Shown: piece after piece, positions 28,293 through 53,137 of the stretch | Numbering within the stretch: the first letter of the stretch is position 1 | Layout: each line of letters begins with the position of its first letter | Assembly (NCBI RefSeq): GCF_026210795.1 | Contig: NC_089445.1 | Coordinates: 2,914,001-2,978,000, forward strand | Origin: Rhizophagus irregularis | Lineage: Eukaryota; Glomeromycota; Glomeromycetes; Glomerales; Glomeraceae | Reading direction: 5' to 3' | Length of the DNA stretch: 64,000 nucleotides | Notes under the pieces: model-generated | The model's input: only the letters and a program-made list of their open reading frames with translations | The model's database searches: none | What the model was told of the DNA's origin: nothing | Program-made: the position numbers and the translations under genes

Positions 28293-30074
28293 TTATCTAC
28301 TCATCGGCGTATGGTAGATTTTTAATAATTCTCCATTCACAGGTGTTTTCTTGATTACACCCTTAATATCTTTAATTTTGTAGGCTCCATTTGGTAGTAT
28401 TTCATGAATGTAAAATGGTCCCAACCATTTTGATTCCAATTTTCCAGATAATTGTTGTGCTTTGGCTTTATCATAAAGTAATATTTTATCTCCAATTCCA
28501 AAGGTATGTTCTTTAATTATTTTTCTGTCATGATACTCTTTTTGTTTTATTTGAGATTTTAATATTTGTTCTTTGGCTTCATATCAGATTTTCGGTAATT
28601 CTTCTAATAATCCAACTATTCTGTCACTTAGGTTGATTCCTTTGATATCTTCATCCATTATTGTCCGTACATTTCTCCCATATGTTAGATAAAATGGTCG
28701 AATTTTTGTTGAACTGTGCTTTTTATTTCTGTAGGCGAATAATATGGGTGCTATCTTCTGATCCCAATCATCCTTAGTTGATAATTTTGTTAATGCTTGA
28801 CCTAATGTTCGATTGAATCTTTCAACCAATCCATTTGTTTCTGGATGGTAACTGGTAGAAAAATTCCATTTTATCCTGAATTTTTCCATTAATTCTTTAA
28901 TCATTTCATTGTTAAAGTGACTTCCTCTATCACTCAATATCTTCATTGGACATCCATGTCTACAGATGATATCTTCATAAATAAATTTTGACACTTCTTT
29001 AGCAGTTGCTTCTTTTACTGCTTTGGCTTCTGGCCATTTTGTAAAATAATCCATTGCTACTATGATGTATTTATTACCATTTGTTGTTGTGTTCAATGGT
29101 CCGACAAAGTCAATCCCGATTTGATACCATGGTTCTACTACTTTAATTGGGTGTAATTCATTTTTCCCTTGTGGTTTTCCTCTTCTCTGACATTTATCAC
29201 ATGTCCTTACATATCTTTCAACATCATTCAGCATATTTTCCCAATAATATTTATCTTTTAAATTATCATAAGTACTTTTGATTCCCATATGTGCCGATAA
29301 TTCATGACTATGAGATAAATATAGTGCTCCCATCTTTTCAAAATCTTCTATTACTCTGATGTTTTTACCATTTTTCTCAATATACTTTTTACCATCAGTT
29401 ACTCTGATGTTATCCTTAATCTCAACATTTTTAACCTCTATTGGTGGTTTATCTCCATCTAATTCTATTATTTTATTATATACTCTTTCCCAATCTGTGT
29501 CATTATTTGATATTTTAATATTAGCATATTTTTCTCCTTCATAAATATCTTGACATTCTTTAAATGATTTCACCATCTCCATATATCTTTCCTCATTTAA
29601 TAATGGGTATGATGTTTTATGTCCTTGATCCTTTTTCGAATATTTTCTACCTTTGTAATTTTCCCAACATTTTTCATTTTCTAAAAATATCACTATTGAT
29701 TCATCAATTATCCTTTTGTTCCTAAATATTTCCTTTTCTAATAGGTGGTTCTCGTATCTTGTTATGTATCCTCTGTCAAATGATGGTGTTTGTTGATAAA
29801 AATACTCACTATAAGGGCTTTTATCCAATATTAACCAATCCTCATTATCATGTTCTTCCATTCTCCTGTTGATTTGTTCGACAACTTCCTTCCTGAATTC
29901 CCATTCTATACCTTTCTTTGGTATTTTATACTTATCATTGTCCTCTCTTCTCCTTTTAAAGGTGTTAAACCTCACACTTTGTCCTACTTTTTCAAATTCT
30001 TTTATAAGTTTATTTACGATGAATGTTTTTCCAGTACCATCGACTCCACATATAATTATTATTTTAGGTCCCAT
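28293..30074 (-). pseudogene. pol: thymidylate-kinase-like domain plus integrase, interrupted by TGA
   Basis: The ORF opens at the ATG at 30074. Residues 10-17 are a Walker A motif (GVDGTGKT) in IIIICGVDGTGKTFIV. Residues 83-95 (LDKSPYSEYFYQQ) match the DR/DK-SP-YS motif of deoxynucleoside or dTMP kinases, and the whole 1-205 region fits that fold. Residues 251-296 are the integrase zinc-binding HHCC (H257, H262, C292, C295). The catalytic triad is D322 (GIDFVGP), D382 (LSDRGSHF) and E418 (LVERFNRTL). A TGA at 28584-28586 ends the ORF inside the C-terminal part. The same frame then continues to the TAA at 28293 with the GPY/F-type segment (KWLGPFYIHEILPNGAY). Upstream, a 60-codon acidic linker in another frame overlaps the ATG by 11 nt. 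A kinase fused to integrase is not a usual Ty3/Gypsy part. Confidence 0.85.
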
Positions 30075-30251
30075 TTTTACATAATTCGGATAATTTCAGC
30101 TTATTTACTCTACTTAATATCACCTCTATTTGTAATATTTCCTCTTGAGTTTCCAATATTAGTGGTTTTTCCTTACTATCCTCGAAATTTTCAACCTTAT
30201 TATGATTTATCCTGTTTATATTTTTGAATCTTGAGTCTTTTACCCATCTAT

Positions 30252-31732
30252 TTATATTATTCTTGATAATGCATCAGCATTTTTATTTTCTTTTCCTGGT
30301 CTGTGGGTTATTTCAAAATCATACTGTTCTAATTCCATGACCCATCTTGATCTCTTTCCTGTTGGTACTTTTGCAGTCATCAATCCTTTCAAAGCTGCAT
30401 GGTCTGTCACTACCTCAAATTTTCTATTGATCAAGTATTTATGGAAATGTTGTATTCCCCATACAATTGCATAACATTCTTGTTCGGTTATTGGCCATCT
30501 TTGTTCCGTCCTGTTTAAACTTTTACTGGCGTACTCTATCACATATTCTTGACCTTTATCATCCTTCTGAGCTAATACCGCTCCTAATCCTATTCCTGAA
30601 GCATCCGTGATTAATATAAATTTCCTTGTCCAATCTGGTTGTCTTAACACTGGTTCTTCAGTTAATTTCCTTTTTAATATTTCTAATGCTTCATGTTGTT
30701 TGATGCCCCATTCAAACTTTTCATCTTTTCTCAATAAAGATGTTATTGGTTTTACTATTTTTGAAAAATCTTTAATAAATTTTCTATAATACGTACATAA
30801 TCCTAATATTGATCTTACACCTTTTATATTTGTAGGTGCTGTTAATTTTTGTATCTTTTCAACCTTCCCTGGACTTGGTTTTAATCCATTTTTACCAACT
30901 ACATGTCCTAAGAATTCTATTTCTGTTTTTCCAAATATACATTTCTTTAACTTTAGTATTAAACTGGCTTCCCTTAATTTTTCTAACACTAACTTTATGT
31001 GTTTTAGGTGGTCTTCAAAATTTTCCGAATATATCATTATACCATCAATGTACACTATCACAAATTCATTCAGGTATTCCTTTAATACTTTGTCCATCAA
31101 CCTTTGAAAACTGCAGGCACATTTGTTAACCCAAATGGCATGACATTATATTCATATAATCCTGCTGAGCATATAAATGCTGTTTTCTCAATATCTTCCT
31201 CAGCCATCTCTATCTGATTGAACCCTGATGCTAAATCCAGACTAGTAAACCATTTTCCTGAGCTTATCCTTTCTAATTGTTCGTCAATCCTTGGTAATGG
31301 ATATGCATCTGCTATTGTAACTTTATTTAATTTTCTATAATCGATGCAAAATCTATAATTTCCAGACTTTTTTCCTGCTAAAGTCACTGGTGAAGACCAA
31401 GGGCTTCTGGATTCTCTAATTTTTCCTAATTTTAACATTTCATCTACCTCTTTTCTAATAAATTTACCTTTTTCATCGTTTTCTTTGTACCTCTTTTGAG
31501 CTATTGGTTCAGTATCTTCTTTTAATCTGATTTCATGTTTTACTAGGTTTGTCCTGTTATATTTTTCACCATCGTACTCAAATATATCCTTGTATTTTTC
31601 TACTAATACCTTTAATTTACCTTTTTGTTCATTGGTTATGTCCCCTACTTTAAATTTTCCAATAAATTTTTCATGGTCATTTTTATGCTTCTTTATCGTC
31701 TCTTCAGTATCATTCTGACCAAGACTTATACT
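30252..31732 (-). pseudogene. pol: reverse transcriptase and RNase H, frame-shifted
   Basis: RT opens at 31732, one base back (-1) relative to the protease frame. It runs through SRSPWSSPV, RFCIDYRKLN, LPRIDEQL, FTSLDLASGF and MPFGLTN to a TGA at 31097. The coding then continues in another frame from about 31100 to the TAA at 30252, and the junction looks like a single-base loss within VFKG. In the second part, the YxDD active site reads VYIDGIMIYS (GGT at 31041-31043), so one of the two metal-binding aspartates is missing. RNase H follows (LITDASGIGLGAVLAQ, TEQECYAIVW, VVTDHAALKGL), ending in NADALSR. This copy cannot supply functional RT. It replicates DNA from the element RNA in intact relatives. 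Confidence 0.95.
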
Positions 31733-47495: not shown

Positions 47496-48101
47496 AAGAC
47501 TGAGTCTTTAGACATCCTGAATGATCCTTACGTCATGTATACGAATCCTCAAGGCGAAATTACTACGGTGTTGAATATTGCTTGTCACAAATCTTTGTTT
47601 AACAAAAATTATCCTTCACATATCATTATATGTATTTTGGGATTAACGGGTCCAATATATGGAGAAATTAAAAGGATTGGGGACATGCAATTGGGTGTTC
47701 CAACTCAATGTATTTTACTCAAACGATTAGTGAGAAAAAATGGAATCGATCAAATTTGTTCAAACATCTTTTTGAAAGTGAACGCAAAATTAGGTAGACA
47801 AAATGTAATATTAACCAATGATCAAATTGATTTTGTATCTTCAGAACTGACAGTGATATTTGGCGCTGATGTTTTCCATTCTGGAAGAGGTGATAATAGG
47901 CCAAGTATTGCAGCTGTATGTGTCTCATTGGATTCAAAAGCTACTAGATACGGAAGATTTAGTGTTAATAAGGATCCTCGAAATGAAATTATTGAAGATC
48001 TCAAAGGAATAGTAATCGATTTACTTCGTGTTTTTTATCAAAGAAATTAAGTTTTACTGAGAAAAATTTTGTTTTATCGTGATCGGTGAGTTTGGCAATT
48101 T
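47496..48101 (+). pseudogene. Argonaute PIWI-domain fragment, truncated and frame-shifted
   Basis: An acceptor TTTTTTTAG (ends 47495) opens a frame reading KTESLDILNDP, then YTNPQGEITTVLN, GEIKRIGDMQLGVPTQCIL, NIFLKVNAKLGRQN, VIFGADVFHSGRGDNRPSIA, DPRNEIIEDLKGIVID and LLRVFYQRN before a TAA at 48048. These are the first half of a eukaryotic PIWI domain in order, including the first catalytic Asp (GADVFH). Past the stop, in another frame, KILFYRD (48063-48083) matches the next conserved block containing the second catalytic Asp, and then the sequence decays. The PAZ and MID domains and the catalytic His region are absent. It cannot be a working slicer. It lies just outside the right arm of the inverted-repeat element. 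Confidence 0.85.
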
Positions 48102-48774: not shown

Positions 48775-51700
48775 CTACTTTTTTATAATATATATAGCGG
48801 CTACATAGCTACTACACAGTCCCGATTTTGCAAGTTTCAGTAAAGTATTTAAAATTTTTTCAGAAGATGGCCTTTTTAATGGATCTTTATTCCAACCCAT
48901 TTTCATTAAATCTACATAACATTGTGGAATATTTTCAATAATTTCAGGTCGTTCACCTTTACAAATACTTAAACTAAGTTGAATATCATGTGCCCTATTA
49001 TTAAATGGCGGTGCTCCAGATGTAAATTCCCACATAATCATAGAAAAACTATATATATCACTAGCTGGAGTATGAGATTTTCCCCTTAAAACTTCAGGTG
49101 CCATAAATGGTATAACACCATAAATATCATATCTTTTTAAAAATGATTTTACAGGTTGACATAATCCTAAATCACTAATATAAACCTTTTCATTCTTATA
49201 ATTTTCAGTTTCTTCATCTTCTTCATCTTCTACATCCTTATGATTTAAAACGTTGCCATCATGTAAATCACAATGAATAAGATTTTGTTTATGTCCGGAA
49301 ATAATTTTGTATAACATATGTAATTTTTGTTTCCAATTATTTTTTACTATATTTGTTAAATTTCCTCTCAAATTACCTTTGTTTGCATAATCCATTACTA
49401 CCATATAATTCAAAGTATCTGGATTTTTTGTAAATCCATAAAGATCAATAATTCCATATGAATCTAAACAACTCTTATGACATTTCCACTATAAAGAATA
49501 ATAATATATTAGAATAAATAAATATAATTTAGATTTTTTTTAAAAAAATAGCATAATACTATTATCATACTTCATTCAAAAATTCATCTAAATTTTCATT
49601 TAAATTATTGTGACATTTAAGAGCTACTTCTATAATCTTATTATATGATTTATATCCATCTAACCAAATAGCTTTGTATATAGAACCAAATCCTCCTTTA
49701 TCAAGATATTCAATATTTTTTAATTGGTTATAAGGAATCCATTTTAATTTATTTCTAAAAATAAATTAATCTATAATTGCATTTTTACTTTTACCAAATC
49801 TATAAATTTAAATAATTAAAATTATATTAAAACATATATATCAAAATTTAAAATTTAAAATATAATATTGAGTACTTACTCTTAAAATTTAAATGAGATT
49901 TAATAAAATATAACTTAGTTTTTTCATAAATTATATGTAAAATAACCTATAATTAATAACTTACCAACTGAAGTAAAGATGTTTTTTCAAATAAAGAATT
50001 CAGTTAACTAAAGCTATAACTAAAATAAATAATACATGATAGGAATAACTAATAACTTACATGCTATATCATTAAATATTTTAGTAAAGAATTTAGTTAG
50101 ATTAAACTATATATATATATAAATATTATATAAATATGTGGTTTATAACTTACAATCTAAAATAAATTACCAAATTATTTTTTTAAACAATAATTAGTTT
50201 AGATTATATATAAGTATTACATAATAGAATAAATAATAAATATTAAATTTACCAACTATATATCAGATAAGTTTTTAAATAAAGAATTTAATTAGATTAA
50301 AAAATTATATACAAATATTATATAAATATGTAGCTTATAACTTACCAGCTAAAATAAATTACCAGATAATTAATAAAGATTTAATAGTTAGTTAAAATTA
50401 TATCATATAAACATTATATAAATGTATATAATAGAATTAAATTAATAACTTACAAACTATATTATTAAATAAGTTTTAAATAAAGAATTTAGTTAGTTAA
50501 ATTATATCATGTAAACATTATATAAATATGTAATATTAAAAAATAATTAACTTACAAGCTTTATTATTAAATAATCATTTAAAAAAGAATTTAGTTAGTA
50601 GCCTAAATCATTATATAAATATGTGATAATAGAATAAAATAAATAACCTACTTCCTATATATAAATAATTTTTAATTGAAGAATTTAGTAGTTTAATTTG
50701 TATGTAAATATTAATAGAATTAATTAAATAACTTACCATCTACATTAATAAAATGAATAATTGGTATATGATAGTATTATATAAATATGCTAAAATAAAA
50801 TTAAATAAATAATTTATAGTAACTTACCCACTAAAAGAAATTACCAAAATAATTTTTTAAATAAATAATTTAATTAGCTTAAATTTTACGTAAATATTAT
50901 ATAAATATGTACTAATAATAGAATTTAACAAATAGCTTATAACTTACGTCCTAATTCAATAAAGAATTTAGTTAGTTTAAATTATAAATATGTAATAATA
51001 GAATTAAATAAATAACTCACTCCCTATAAATAAATAAGAATTTTAGTTAGTTTAAATTATTACATGTAAATATTATATATACTGTATATGTAATAATAGA
51101 ATTAAGCAAATAACTTACACACTATAAATAATTTTTTAAATAATGAATTTAGTTATATGTAAATATTATTTAAATATATAATAATAGAATTAAACAAATA
51201 ACTTACTCACTATAAATAATTTTTTAAATAAAGAATTTAGTTAGTTTGAATCATATATAAATATTATATGGATACTTAATAATTGAATTAATAGAATTAA
51301 ATAAATAACTCACATTCTATATTATTCAGTTAAATAATTGAATTTAGTTAGTAGTTTAAATTATATGCAAATATTATATAAAAATGTAAGAAATAAACAA
51401 ATAACTTACTTCCTTAATTTTTTGTATAAGAATTTAGTTAGTTTAAAATATAGAATTAAATAAATGGCTTATAAATTACCAACTAACCAACTAAACCAAC
51501 TAAAAGAAATCATCAAATAATTTTTAAATAAAGAATTTAGTTAGTTTAAATGATACATAAAATTAAATATATTAAATAAACAACCTTATAACTTACATTC
51601 TAAGTAAATAAATAATTTATTAAATAAAGAATTAGTCAGTTTAAATTATATGTAAATATAATACAAATATGTAATAATAGAAATATAGAATCAAATCTTA

Positions 51701-52456
51701 CTATCTATATTATTTAATTATTTTAAATGAATAATTTAGTATATTTAAATTTGTAAACATTGTACAATAGAATTAAATTAATAAAAATAAATAACTTACC
51801 AACTACCAAAAGAAATTGCCAAATAGTTTTTAATAAAAGAGTTAGTTAGTTTAAATTACATGTAAATAATATTACAAATATATAATAATAGAATTAAATA
51901 AATAACTTACTCTCTATTGTATTAATTAATTTTTAGATAAATAATTAGTTTATAATGTAAATATTATATAGTTATGTAATAATAAAATTAAATATAGCTT
52001 ACCAACTAAAAGAAATCAACAAATAATTTTTTAAATAAAGAATTAGTTTAAATTGTATAAATAATAAAATATTGATAAATTATAACTTACACCCTAGAGT
52101 ATTATTAATTATTAAATTAGTTGGGTACATATAATACAAAGTATATACTGTAAATTATATATCACTTACAATCTAATCATTCAAATAATGAATATCAGAT
52201 ATATTGTTAGTTGAGTTATATAAAATACTAAACAAATAAATATAATATATTAAATATTATAATTTACCATCTGTAATATAATTAATTACCGAGTAATTAA
52301 AAATTTAGAAAAATGAAGTAAAGAAAGAACTAAAGATTTAAATAGATGATAACTTACTAACTATAGTATTATCAAATCATTAAATGAATTATTTAGTCAT
52401 ATGTATTATAACAAAAATAAGTAATTCAATTATAAGATAATCTATTAACTTACAAC
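48775..52456 (-). CDS. TKL-type protein kinase with a 5' chain of 3-nt microexons
   Basis: The catalytic exons are 49571-49754 and 48775-49488 (TAA at 48775), with an 82-nt intron and frame kept. The first reads KLKWIPYNQLKNIEYL, the glycine loop DKGGFGSIYKA and VALKCHNN (the VAIK lysine). The second has YMVVMDYANKGNL (hinge), LIHCDLHDGN (HRD with Arg replaced by Cys), ISDLGL (DFG as DLG), PFMAPEVLRG (APE) and SDIYSFSMIMWEF. The first exon needs two bases from upstream. These come from a 1-nt exon (49880) and a chain of 27 three-nt microexons (49965-52456), giving a stop-free peptide that begins FNDWFEIDKF and ends VDSFEN. The true start codon lies upstream of 52456 and was not found. This would be a soluble signalling kinase of a family very numerous in Rhizophagus. 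Confidence 0.8.
49880..52456 (-). other. Array of 27 three-nt microexons and one 1-nt microexon
   Basis: Each item is the minus-strand triplet and its lowest coordinate: GTT 52454, TTA 52358, ATG 52268, ATT 52170, GGT 52091, TTG 52003, AGA 51911, TTG 51800, ATA 51702, AAT 51597, TTG 51480, GAA 51410, AAT 51314, TGA 51207, TGT 51119, GGA 51021, GAC 50948, TGG 50828, ATG 50737, GAA 50652, CTT 50556, TTT 50454, CTG 50346, TTG 50253, ATT 50154, CAT 50061, TTG 49965, then A 49880. Every one is preceded by AG and followed by GT, mostly GTAAGT (also GTGAGT, GTAAAT, GTAGGT, GTAATT). Introns are 67-117 nt and related in sequence, and most contain an ACTAAC(T) branch-site match about 25-40 nt before the AG. 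Codons are split after the third base of each triplet. Confidence 0.75.
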
Positions 52457-52721: not shown

Positions 52722-53137
52722 AGCATTACATAAAGTAATATAATAATATTTAAATTATTTCAAATGATTTTTTTTCTAAAAAAAATTTTAATATTTAGCT
52801 TGTTTAATACCTTCAGATTCCTTGGTGCTACTTGTAACTTATTGCAATTTGATTAAAATTTTAGAATAATTCTAATCTGTATTAATTATTCATGTTACGT
52901 GCTTTTACCTTTATCATTACTTTGTCTTTGTCCCATAATCATATGCCTTTAATCTTTATCTTTGCTTTGTTTTTGTCCTATTACTATATAAATCAAAAAT
53001 TCTTCCCTAGCTGAAAAGATACAGTAACGTAAATATATTTTTCAATTAAATGGTGGATATTTATGCAAAATGCATTATGTTGATCAAGTACTGCATGTAT
53101 AACAAACAAATTTTGAAATTTTGTATGTCCGCAGCTG
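52722..53137. other. Possible 5' region of the kinase gene
   Basis: On the minus strand an exon-like stretch ends at 52811 (AAGGAATCTGAAG before GTATTA) with a phase that could join the first microexon, but no start codon or family match supports it. The rest is AT-rich, with a repeated CTTTATCATTACTTTGTCTTTGTC-like motif near 52910-52975. Confidence 0.25.

Follow-up and report, generated by a model that had tools for sequence, protein, structure and literature searches.

Among the systems closest to the locus described here, the micro-exon genes (MEGs) of Schistosoma have exons of 6-36 nt, introners and introner-like elements form families of near-identical spliceosomal introns dispersed in unrelated genes, and the fungal allorecognition genes (HET/NLR) are amplified and carry hypervariable WD40, ANK, or TPR repeats that possibly give recognition. 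MEGs, as far as the published account describes them, hold most of their coding sequence in very small symmetrical exons (PMC4350168). Isolated 3-nt and 1-nt exons described in Drosophila hth, Arabidopsis, and Fusarium CYP621A show that spliceosomal inclusion of such exons is possible (PMC7392893, PMC4674806, PMC12940212). Here we analyzed a stretch of 64,000 nucleotides (hereafter the window) from Rhizophagus irregularis (assembly GCF_026210795.1, contig NC_089445.1, positions 2,914,001 to 2,978,000). This symbiotic soil fungus was long thought to be asexual, and its hyphae fuse.

On its minus strand the window contains an array of 3-nt exons (Table 1), which very probably represents a series of single-codon exons, all constitutively included, that encodes the hypervariable segment in an amplified family of fungal kinases. 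On the one hand, this family resembles MEGs in its very small, symmetrical, tandem exons, its multigene nature, and its variable products. On the other hand, its exons are single codons, up to 49 of them consecutive, they belong to a kinase, and the introns between them are nearly identical; moreover, junctions formed by skipping are unprotected from stops, and variation lies between loci. Near-identical introns are also shared with introners, but the arrays whose gene was reached are tandem and precede kinases. Amplification, hypervariability, and a possibly recognition-giving part are shared with HET/NLR genes, from which the family differs by its combination of a kinase and a codon array, the L025 model having no WD40, ANK, or TPR domain. 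Whereas the tiny exons of hth, Arabidopsis, and CYP621A are, as far as described, single, those of Rhizophagus form chains. No such arrays appeared among the matches listed for the literature on Rhizophagus and Glomeromycotina and on 3-nt and 1-nt exons, a search that took in few subscription papers and left bioRxiv uncovered. We know of no other gene layout in which consecutive codons each stand alone between similar introns, nor of a precedent for splicing 20-50 introns around 3-nt exons.

All 27 AG-NNN-GT units that an earlier note on this DNA had reported were recovered, running from 52456 to 49965. As that note had stated, the donors are mostly GTAAGT (19 of 27; the others are two GTGAGT, two GTAAAT, and one each of GTAAGC, GTAAGA, GTAATT, and GTAGGT), spacings of 70-120 between units correspond to introns of 67-117 nt, and a hand recount gave 25 G or C among the 81 triplet bases (31%). 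Its reading phase also held, unit 14 being TGA in phase 0 and phase 1 being open across the array. The overall interpretation was borne out in part: phase-1 reading of one-codon exons ahead of a kinase was upheld by the avoidance of stops at adjacent junctions (see below), whereas a supposed IDKF match, a direct join to the kinase, restriction to a single gene, and intron gain as the only cause were not. Specifically, the array had been taken to run straight into an exon at the WIPYNQ acceptor, but the frame passes through the 1-nt exon and then through K1. As judged by eye, a direct join of the last unit to the 49754 acceptor, which precedes AAATAAATT, produced a stop in the array phase, and a candidate 5-nt exon, ATTTG, failed in frame; in the paralogues read, K1 starts with those bases. 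The likeness of F-x-x-W to ordinary paralogues is real: an ordinary-exon relative (L079) has the homologous FxxW...SGNxxIDKFI...WIPYN linker and kinase start, with FxxW-TSGN contiguous in one exon and no array, and the array position falls between W and SGN. The resemblance to IDKF was coincidental, the homologous IIDxFI (IIDKFI) being encoded downstream in K1.

Table 1. Features of the array-bearing kinase gene in the window (positions are those of the whole stretch).
Feature	Position	Strand	Description
Exon 1	52909..52936	-	MGQRQSNDK plus 1 base; start codon, N-myristoylation-like MGQ, phase-1 end; predicted boundaries
Exon 2	52811..52837	-	VTSSTKESE plus 1 base; short, polar, phase 1 to phase 1; predicted boundaries
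Array	49965..52456	-	27 three-nucleotide exons and 26 introns; phase-1 peptide FNDWFEIDKFGKLMWRLDGTFSVDSF
Units 1-5	52091..52456	-	Conserved 5' anchor [LF]-x-[DN]-W
Units 6-26	50061..52005	-	Hypervariable part; peptide unlike in each of 13 arrays (joined or fetched long)
Unit 27	49965..49967	-	TTG, the commonest final array unit
1-nt exon	49880..49880	-	A, in TTTTAAG-A-GTAAGT; in-frame bridge from array to K1
Exon K1	49571..49799	-	EFGKSKNAIID*FIF...KWIPYNQ...; carries the linker and the start of the kinase domain
In-frame TAA	49766..49768	-	Inside K1, window copy
Exon K2	48775..49488	-	Remaining kinase domain; C-terminus shorter than in joined paralogues

Exon 1 of the window matches in position the MGQCI[GS]K of three paralogues (L013, L025, and L030), in which the equivalent of exon 2 (acceptor AAG in the window copy) joins in frame. 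In these three loci, exons 1 and 2, the array, the 1-nt exon, and K1 form one stop-free frame, and the same full join in the window copy is open except for the stop in K1. This stop was found in the window copy only, with none in 23 other loci in which K1 was read. Because of it and of the shortened kinase, the window copy may be dead. The range given in the earlier note left out the exons at 52811-52936, the 1-nt exon at 49880, and the true K1 start at 49799, and the in-frame stop went unmentioned.

The array had been regarded as the oddity of a lone gene, but arrays were present in 29 of the 30 kinase loci fetched (the best-scoring 30 of 189 matches, including the window locus, L009), and a pattern of three perfect donors in a row, with TAG-N3 separating each from the next, had 710 matches genome-wide, compared to 0 for the reversed pattern. 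The 1-nt exon was located in 27 of the 30 loci (i.e., not in L012, L033, and L037), and a strict pattern for this 3' junction of the array had 79 matches genome-wide and 0 in the control. Joined arrays consist of 21-49 exons, almost every one 3 nt long, followed by the 1-nt exon and the kinase exon; the unit count is a minimum in arrays whose 5' end was not reached with certainty (L010, and possibly L038, L080, and L081). Array span exceeds 3,000 bases in six of the 11 joined loci, with a maximum of 4,937. The ends of the arrays are conserved, and their middle is hypervariable in both sequence and length. Among the joined arrays, 10 of 11 carry [DN]W (L010, as far as it was fetched, is without the 5' anchor, its first unit lying 90 bases from the fetched edge), and the exceptions to a final TTG are ATG in L017 and TCG in L024 and L038. 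Three arrays on contig 1 had no listed close kinase: two precede a diverged kinase, and the fetched piece of the third ended before any gene.

The unit pattern is far from chance. Throughout the 11 joined loci, which total 83,312 bases, AG-N3-GTAAGT occurs at 333 sites for a total of 355 GTAAGT, and AG-N1-GTAAGT at 40, comprising 30 inside AGN triplets and 10 1-nt exons. All other AG-to-GTAAGT spacings from 0 to 15 occur at most three times each in this unbiased count, and on the reverse strand no AG-to-GTAAGT spacing rose above 1. The array parser, which looked for 3- and 6-nt exons only, returned 530 units of 3 nt and nine of 6 nt; the unbiased test of exon length is the spacing count. In an intron survey with the AG and donor type fixed by the search pattern, GTAAGT was the donor in 332 of 377 units (two GC donors were found), a CTRAY branch site was present in 262 of 363 introns, the median length was 97 nt (59-125), and the donor consensus extended to +9. 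These predicted introns have the GT-AG ends, the branch site, and the fungal length of U2-type spliceosomal introns. Spacings above 200 nt in L025 and L034 (277) are insertions with inverted-repeat ends, as read by eye, and that of L022 is an insertion; another in L034 (222) and two long spacings in L010 hold units whose donors are variant (GTAATA or GC), one further long spacing in L010 holds two 6-nt exons, and L080 spacings are long (180-214).

Phase-1 joins of adjacent units gave 0 stops at 570 junctions in 28 arrays, against 16.5 expected from shuffles, and 0 at 481 against 14.4 expected when distinct adjacent pairs were counted per array. The 28 arrays comprise 11 joined, 15 partial, and two extra ones (L080 and L081); L012, L033, and L037, with no 1-nt anchor found, were excluded, as was L016, whose parse was ambiguous (four 6-nt calls) though stop-free too. 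Units two, three, four, five, and six apart showed no clear stop depletion (observed/shuffled: 15/15.7, 17/14.8, 10/14.0, 12/13.2, and 14/12.3, respectively). That stops are absent solely at adjacent junctions indicates that selection 'sees' the array translated with all exons included, in order. This bears on the idea of a non-coding tandem repeat, in which 2-5 kb would escape transcription or be removed as a single intron, the triplets being the variable spot of a satellite. The array occurs in no protein among the database matches listed, as such a repeat would have it, but the restriction of missing stops to adjacent phase-1 junctions makes a repeat of this kind highly improbable, as do the spike of AG-to-GTAAGT spacing at 3, the match of array-end codons to the ordinary paralogue, the connection of up- and downstream frames via the array and 1-nt exon, and a triplet GC four times that of the introns (40% vs 10% in the family arrays). 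The same counts weigh on a splicing-diversity device, i.e., combinatorial exon skipping with many isoforms per gene, as proposed for schistosome MEGs. Any skip would be frame-neutral with parsed units of 3 or 6 nt (the only lengths sought), and one public gene model (P0005) includes just a subset of the units; we nevertheless consider it improbable, given that junctions two to six units apart give stops near the shuffled rate and that the donors are mostly perfect.

Alternatively, each triplet could be a codon read in phase 0, with the 1-nt exon really a 5-nt exon, AGTAA. The downstream frame would fit too, and public models P0016, P0026, and P0047 seem, by eye, to be read in this phase. However, phase-0 stop triplets show no depletion (3 vs 2.7 expected), the exon encoding MGQC in L013, L025, and L030 finishes in phase 1, the donor after AGTAA would be weak and variable (GTGTTA, GTAATA, GTATTA), and in 20 of 26 arrays codon usage favored phase 1 (another phase in six), all of which renders phase 0 very unlikely. 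Phase 2 gave 73 stops at 522 junctions. Our preferred reading remains that of constitutively included exons joined in phase 1.

A complete gene would accordingly begin with exon 1 (MGQC..., myristoylation-like) and a polar exon, continue with 21-49 small exons, and end with the 1-nt exon, K1, and K2. The L025 model matched Pfam PF07714 (3.8e-42) and PF00069 (2.4e-37), and the catalytic motif LIHCDFHDGN, read by eye, has the HxD...N of a TKL-like kinase. Starts of MGQCIGK, MGQCISK, or MGQRQS were present in four of the 11 joined loci (L013, L025, L030, and the window); L014, L023, and L038 have MDQ instead of MGQ, L022 has a stop after two codons at the exon 1 position, and exon 1 was not found in L010, L017, and L034. 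Weighing against this structure, none of the 120 listed matches (of 1263) in the protein database carries this N-terminus, and a protein search with residues 1-92 of the L025 model returned zero matches. Several public gene models likewise chain triplet exons in another phase or omit most of them. Illumina and Nanopore RNA reads have been published for strain DAOM197198 (PMC10234402, PRJNA722386); the Nanopore RNA was, as far as the source describes, mapped with a 3000-base intron limit (PMC10234402), so that with arrays above 3,000 bases reads skipping unmappable 3-nt exons could have been lost.

Next to introns at least 98% identical between loci, the flanking triplets are nearly as unlike as random pairs. 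Within one locus, identical introns are mostly followed by a shared triplet (24% of 54 pairs differ in it); when both flanks match completely it is shared in 8 of 8 pairs, and in 7 of 7 at up to 1% divergence, while at 2-4% it differs in 27 of 39, pairs in these comparisons sharing introns and thus not being independent. The profile of divergence by position around the triplets had no clear decay and did not separate gene conversion from hypermutation. A dedicated process that rewrites the three exonic bases and spares the introns could produce the near-random differences between loci and those at 2-4% flank divergence. Such targeted mutation is nonetheless rather improbable, as fully identical flanks within a locus always share the triplet, and homogenization of introns with selection on codons predicts the same pattern.

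Dense intron gain was the cause originally proposed; in an introner-like form, near-identical introns would have entered every codon of a pre-existing variable exon, with little later turnover. It accounts for near-identical introns separating unrelated codons, and the FxxW codons, contiguous in the ordinary linker, are likewise split into single exons in the array. Alone it is insufficient, and we deem it unlikely, given that arrays differ wholesale between paralogues, that unit number varies from 21 to 49, that multi-unit blocks are duplicated with identical spacing in L025, L038, and L081, and that we know of no mechanism for insertion every 3 nt in one phase. The paralogue pair L080/L081 was counted with the block repeats as support for the array model.

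In the single-codon exon model that we favor, short U2-type introns with near-perfect GTAAGT and CTRAY would be removed successively by intron definition, so that the triplets would need no exonic splicing signal. Arrays have grown by unit duplication, as the block repeats show, and may also have shrunk. Crossover between intron repeats would change whole codons and never shift the frame, and since each codon is split 1+2 nt across two units, any reshuffle would create a new codon where the units meet. Recombination would homogenize the introns, with selection holding the codons different. We tentatively put forward, as a possibility still short of an even chance, that codon-by-codon diversification acts on a large kinase set (79 loci by the strict 3'-junction pattern), many of them probably anchored in the membrane; in this scheme, recombination between the near-identical introns would rewrite the recognition segment in whole codons and with the frame kept, providing a germline self/non-self or partner repertoire. 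By analogy, the variable segment may serve in recognition of non-self or of partners.

If transcripts confirm this structure, spliceosomes would routinely join dozens of 3-nt exons and one 1-nt exon, well beyond assumed exon-size limits, and the part of a large kinase family that varies most would have escaped gene finders. The arrays would represent a new route to protein diversity, in which one codon is the variable unit, the intron supplies the conserved frame, and every recombination joint becomes a new codon through the phase-1 split. In R. irregularis, where hyphae fuse, such a family would be an obvious candidate for recognition.

All 27 units of AG, three nucleotides and a donor that the earlier note had claimed were found in the window, where they run on the minus strand from 52456 to 49965 without exception. 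The whole genome (146.7 Mb, 32 contigs) was queried with the window kinase, yielding 189 matches, a lower bound since scoring covered 138 candidates. Upstream chains of at least four units were present in 29 of the 30 best-scoring kinase loci (the window's own included), L033 being the single exception. Arrays were joined for the window and for ten loci extended by 4 kb, and these 11 arrays comprise 21-49 units each (that of locus L010 is possibly longer). Three perfect donors in succession, with TAG-N3 in the intervals, were matched 710 times genome-wide versus 0 in the reversed control. The strict pattern of a 1-nt exon plus the acceptor of the first kinase exon (K1) occurred 79 times versus 0 in controls, a count of patterns and not of arrays. 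On contig 1 of the same genome (G000:C1), similar arrays lie 5' of a diverged kinase subfamily (TSGSKIVDQFI...WIPYN) at C1:1383485-1385595 and C1:2291971-2294320. Other regular donor/branch-site repeats, ~184 and ~100 nt apart, were seen at C1:3251979-3252758 and C1:3005137-3005404, and may represent a different type of repeated-intron gene.

The 11 joined arrays contain 375 three-nucleotide units, whose donor positions +1 to +9 read GTAAGTTAT with 91-100% agreement per position, the first six positions being partly fixed by the search pattern. The exact GTAAGT hexamer was present in 332 of 377 units. Array introns of up to 140 nt had a median length of 97 nt (range 59-125), and CTRAY was found in 262 of 363 of them, at a median of 35 nt upstream of the 3' end. 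The exonic bases are unconstrained, with a GC content of 40% versus 10% in introns. Strong intronic donors would compensate for the near-absent exon, and the introns would be spliced out successively by intron definition. Weaker donors follow the ordinary exons 1 and 2 (GTAAAA, GTAATA; GTATAT, GTATCT, GTATTA). The arrays were parsed for exons of 3 and 6 nt. In the L010 array, two introns are of the GC-AG type and two exons are 6 nt long, with the frame kept. Individual array introns of L025, L022 and L034 carry insertions that leave the splice sites unharmed; by eye, those of L025 and L034 have inverted-repeat ends.

Exon 1 codes for MGQCIGK or MGQCISK in loci L013, L025 and L030, and its end is in phase 1, like that of the short, polar exon 2. 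Joined in order, these two exons and the array, with the 1-nt exon A and K1 after it, form one stop-free frame. The 1-nt exon, flanked by TTTTAG on its 5' side and GTAAGT (or GTGAGT) on its 3' side, was seen in 27 of 30 kinase loci. K1, read in 24 of these 30, starts with ATTTGG and encodes EFGKSGNxIIDKFI...KWIPYNKF in the phase of the array. Among the 11 joined loci exon 1 varies, with MGQ in four, MDQ in three and an early stop in L022; it was not found in three. The window copy has the same layout (MGQRQSNDK-VTSSTKESEG-FNDW...) and is open as far as a stop in K1 (EFGKSKNAIID*FIF), which only this copy has among the 24 loci with K1 read; its kinase part is shortened as well. The stop-free peptide of the earlier note stands for the array, which is open in phase 1; the stop in K1 went unreported there.

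Both ends of the arrays are conserved. In phase 1, 10 of the 11 joined arrays start with [DN]W, mostly as [LF]x[DN]W[FYW], and L010 had no start anchor within the fetched part. The last array residue before EFG[KTE]S is F in 10 of 11 and Y in L017. Relatives with ordinary exons are plentiful: 150 matches came up for a 62-aa linker query, and all except one lack an inner stop. QQNFKNWTSGNNDIDKFIQDTQLSATHWSEVLEWIPYNKF is contiguous in L079, the one such relative read, so that the array is inserted between the W and the SGN of this linker, with the FxxW codons now single exons. The likeness of F-x-x-W to the linker of related kinases proposed in the earlier note is borne out by this correspondence; the IDKF of the window array, likened to that linker as well, is not the homologous one.

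Stop codons were counted in 28 arrays (598 units) and compared with controls in which unit order was shuffled within arrays. Phase-1 junctions of neighbouring units held 0 stops in 570 versus 16.5 (sd 3.2) after shuffling, and 0 of 3000 shuffles reached zero. Units 2, 3, 4, 5 and 6 apart gave 15, 17, 10, 12 and 14 stops versus 15.7, 14.8, 14.0, 13.2 and 12.3 expected. When distinct unit pairs were counted once per array, neighbours had 0 stops in 481 versus 14.4, and pairs 2, 3 and 4 apart had 15, 17 and 9 versus 13.6, 13.2 and 12.2. Phase 2 contained 73 stops in 522 codons versus 62 shuffled, and phase 0 had no depletion of stop triplets (3 versus 2.7 expected from marginals). Judged by kinase-exon codon usage (8,777 codons), phase 1 fitted best for 20 of the 26 arrays, whereas four were fitted best by phase 0 and two by phase 2. 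Because stops are absent solely at adjacent phase-1 joints and codon usage favours phase 1, these sequences are hard to explain other than by selection on mRNAs that join each 3-nt exon to the next.

Units are also duplicated: the blocks TTA-ATG-ATC-ATC-GGT in L025 and CTG-CAT-ATG-ATC-ATC in L081 are each present twice with identical spacings. In the array pair L080 and L081, picked because the intron before K1 is identical in the part listed, 17 of 25 L080 introns had a match of at least 95% anywhere in L081; the arrays comprise 26 versus 33 units and their peptides are unrelated (WFVVVVGIVYFRDVVWDVWDGRIAF; WWSTAPAHAFALAHHRDDYDHPAYDHPAYDHPF). Intron pairs were compared among 13 arrays, the pairs having introns in common and hence not being independent. 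For the 53 between-locus pairs 98% to <100% identical, the next triplet differed at 0.85/0.38/0.81 of positions and the preceding one at 0.70/0.32/0.57, random triplet pairs differing at 0.73/0.54/0.74. Fully identical introns between loci (7 pairs) had a different next triplet in 57% and previous triplet in 86%; within one locus (54 pairs) the values were 24% and 35%, and these within-locus pairs speak for common ancestry of the triplets. Within loci, the triplet was always the same where both flanks were identical (8 pairs) or at most 1% different (7 pairs), and differed in 27 of 39 pairs at 2-4%, which indicates that fresh duplicates are alike at first and that the triplet is the first part to diverge. 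Mutation targeted to the triplets is an improbable source of this divergence; we prefer a reading in which introns are homogenised and selection favours different codons.

A protein search with residues 1-92 of the L025 model gave zero matches, and the modelled N-terminus was in none of the matches listed (120 of 1263 database matches). By eye, the public models P0005, P0016, P0026 and P0099, and likewise P0047 of R. diaphanus, seem to chain triplet exons in another phase or to use only some; all five look like gene-finder output, not RNA evidence. Since P0047 looks assembled from triplet exons, it suggests that R. diaphanus has arrays too. Known neighbours are the micro-exon genes of Schistosoma, in which very small symmetrical exons make up most of the coding region (PMC4350168). 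Isolated 3-nt and 1-nt exons are likewise on record. Among the publications listed in the literature searches, none matched the combination, still subject to RNA proof, of a chain of one-codon exons, hypervariable codons set in near-identical introns and a 1-nt exon common to a large gene family.

Other features of the window are tabulated; the two ORFs with BTB, BACK and TLDc domains are probably a single gene.

Further features in the window, with strand and basis of assignment
Feature	Position	Strand	Basis
Ty3-like retroelement pieces	28584-31732	minus	Pfam: integrase (rve, H2C2) 28587-30095, RT/RNase H 30255-31145
RT-like ORF of the retroelement stretch	31097-31732	minus	by eye
ORF with partial Piwi domain, near the kinase copy	47496-48050	plus	E 1.2e-27
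Two ORFs carrying BTB, BACK and TLDc domains	364-1977	minus	domain matches

The kinase domain of the gene product is unmistakable. The MGQC of some copies is likely a membrane anchor which, together with a hypervariable segment directly before the kinase, suggests a sensor whose specificity resides in the array. Because hyphae of different strains fuse, a role in recognition would be a natural guess for the array kinases.
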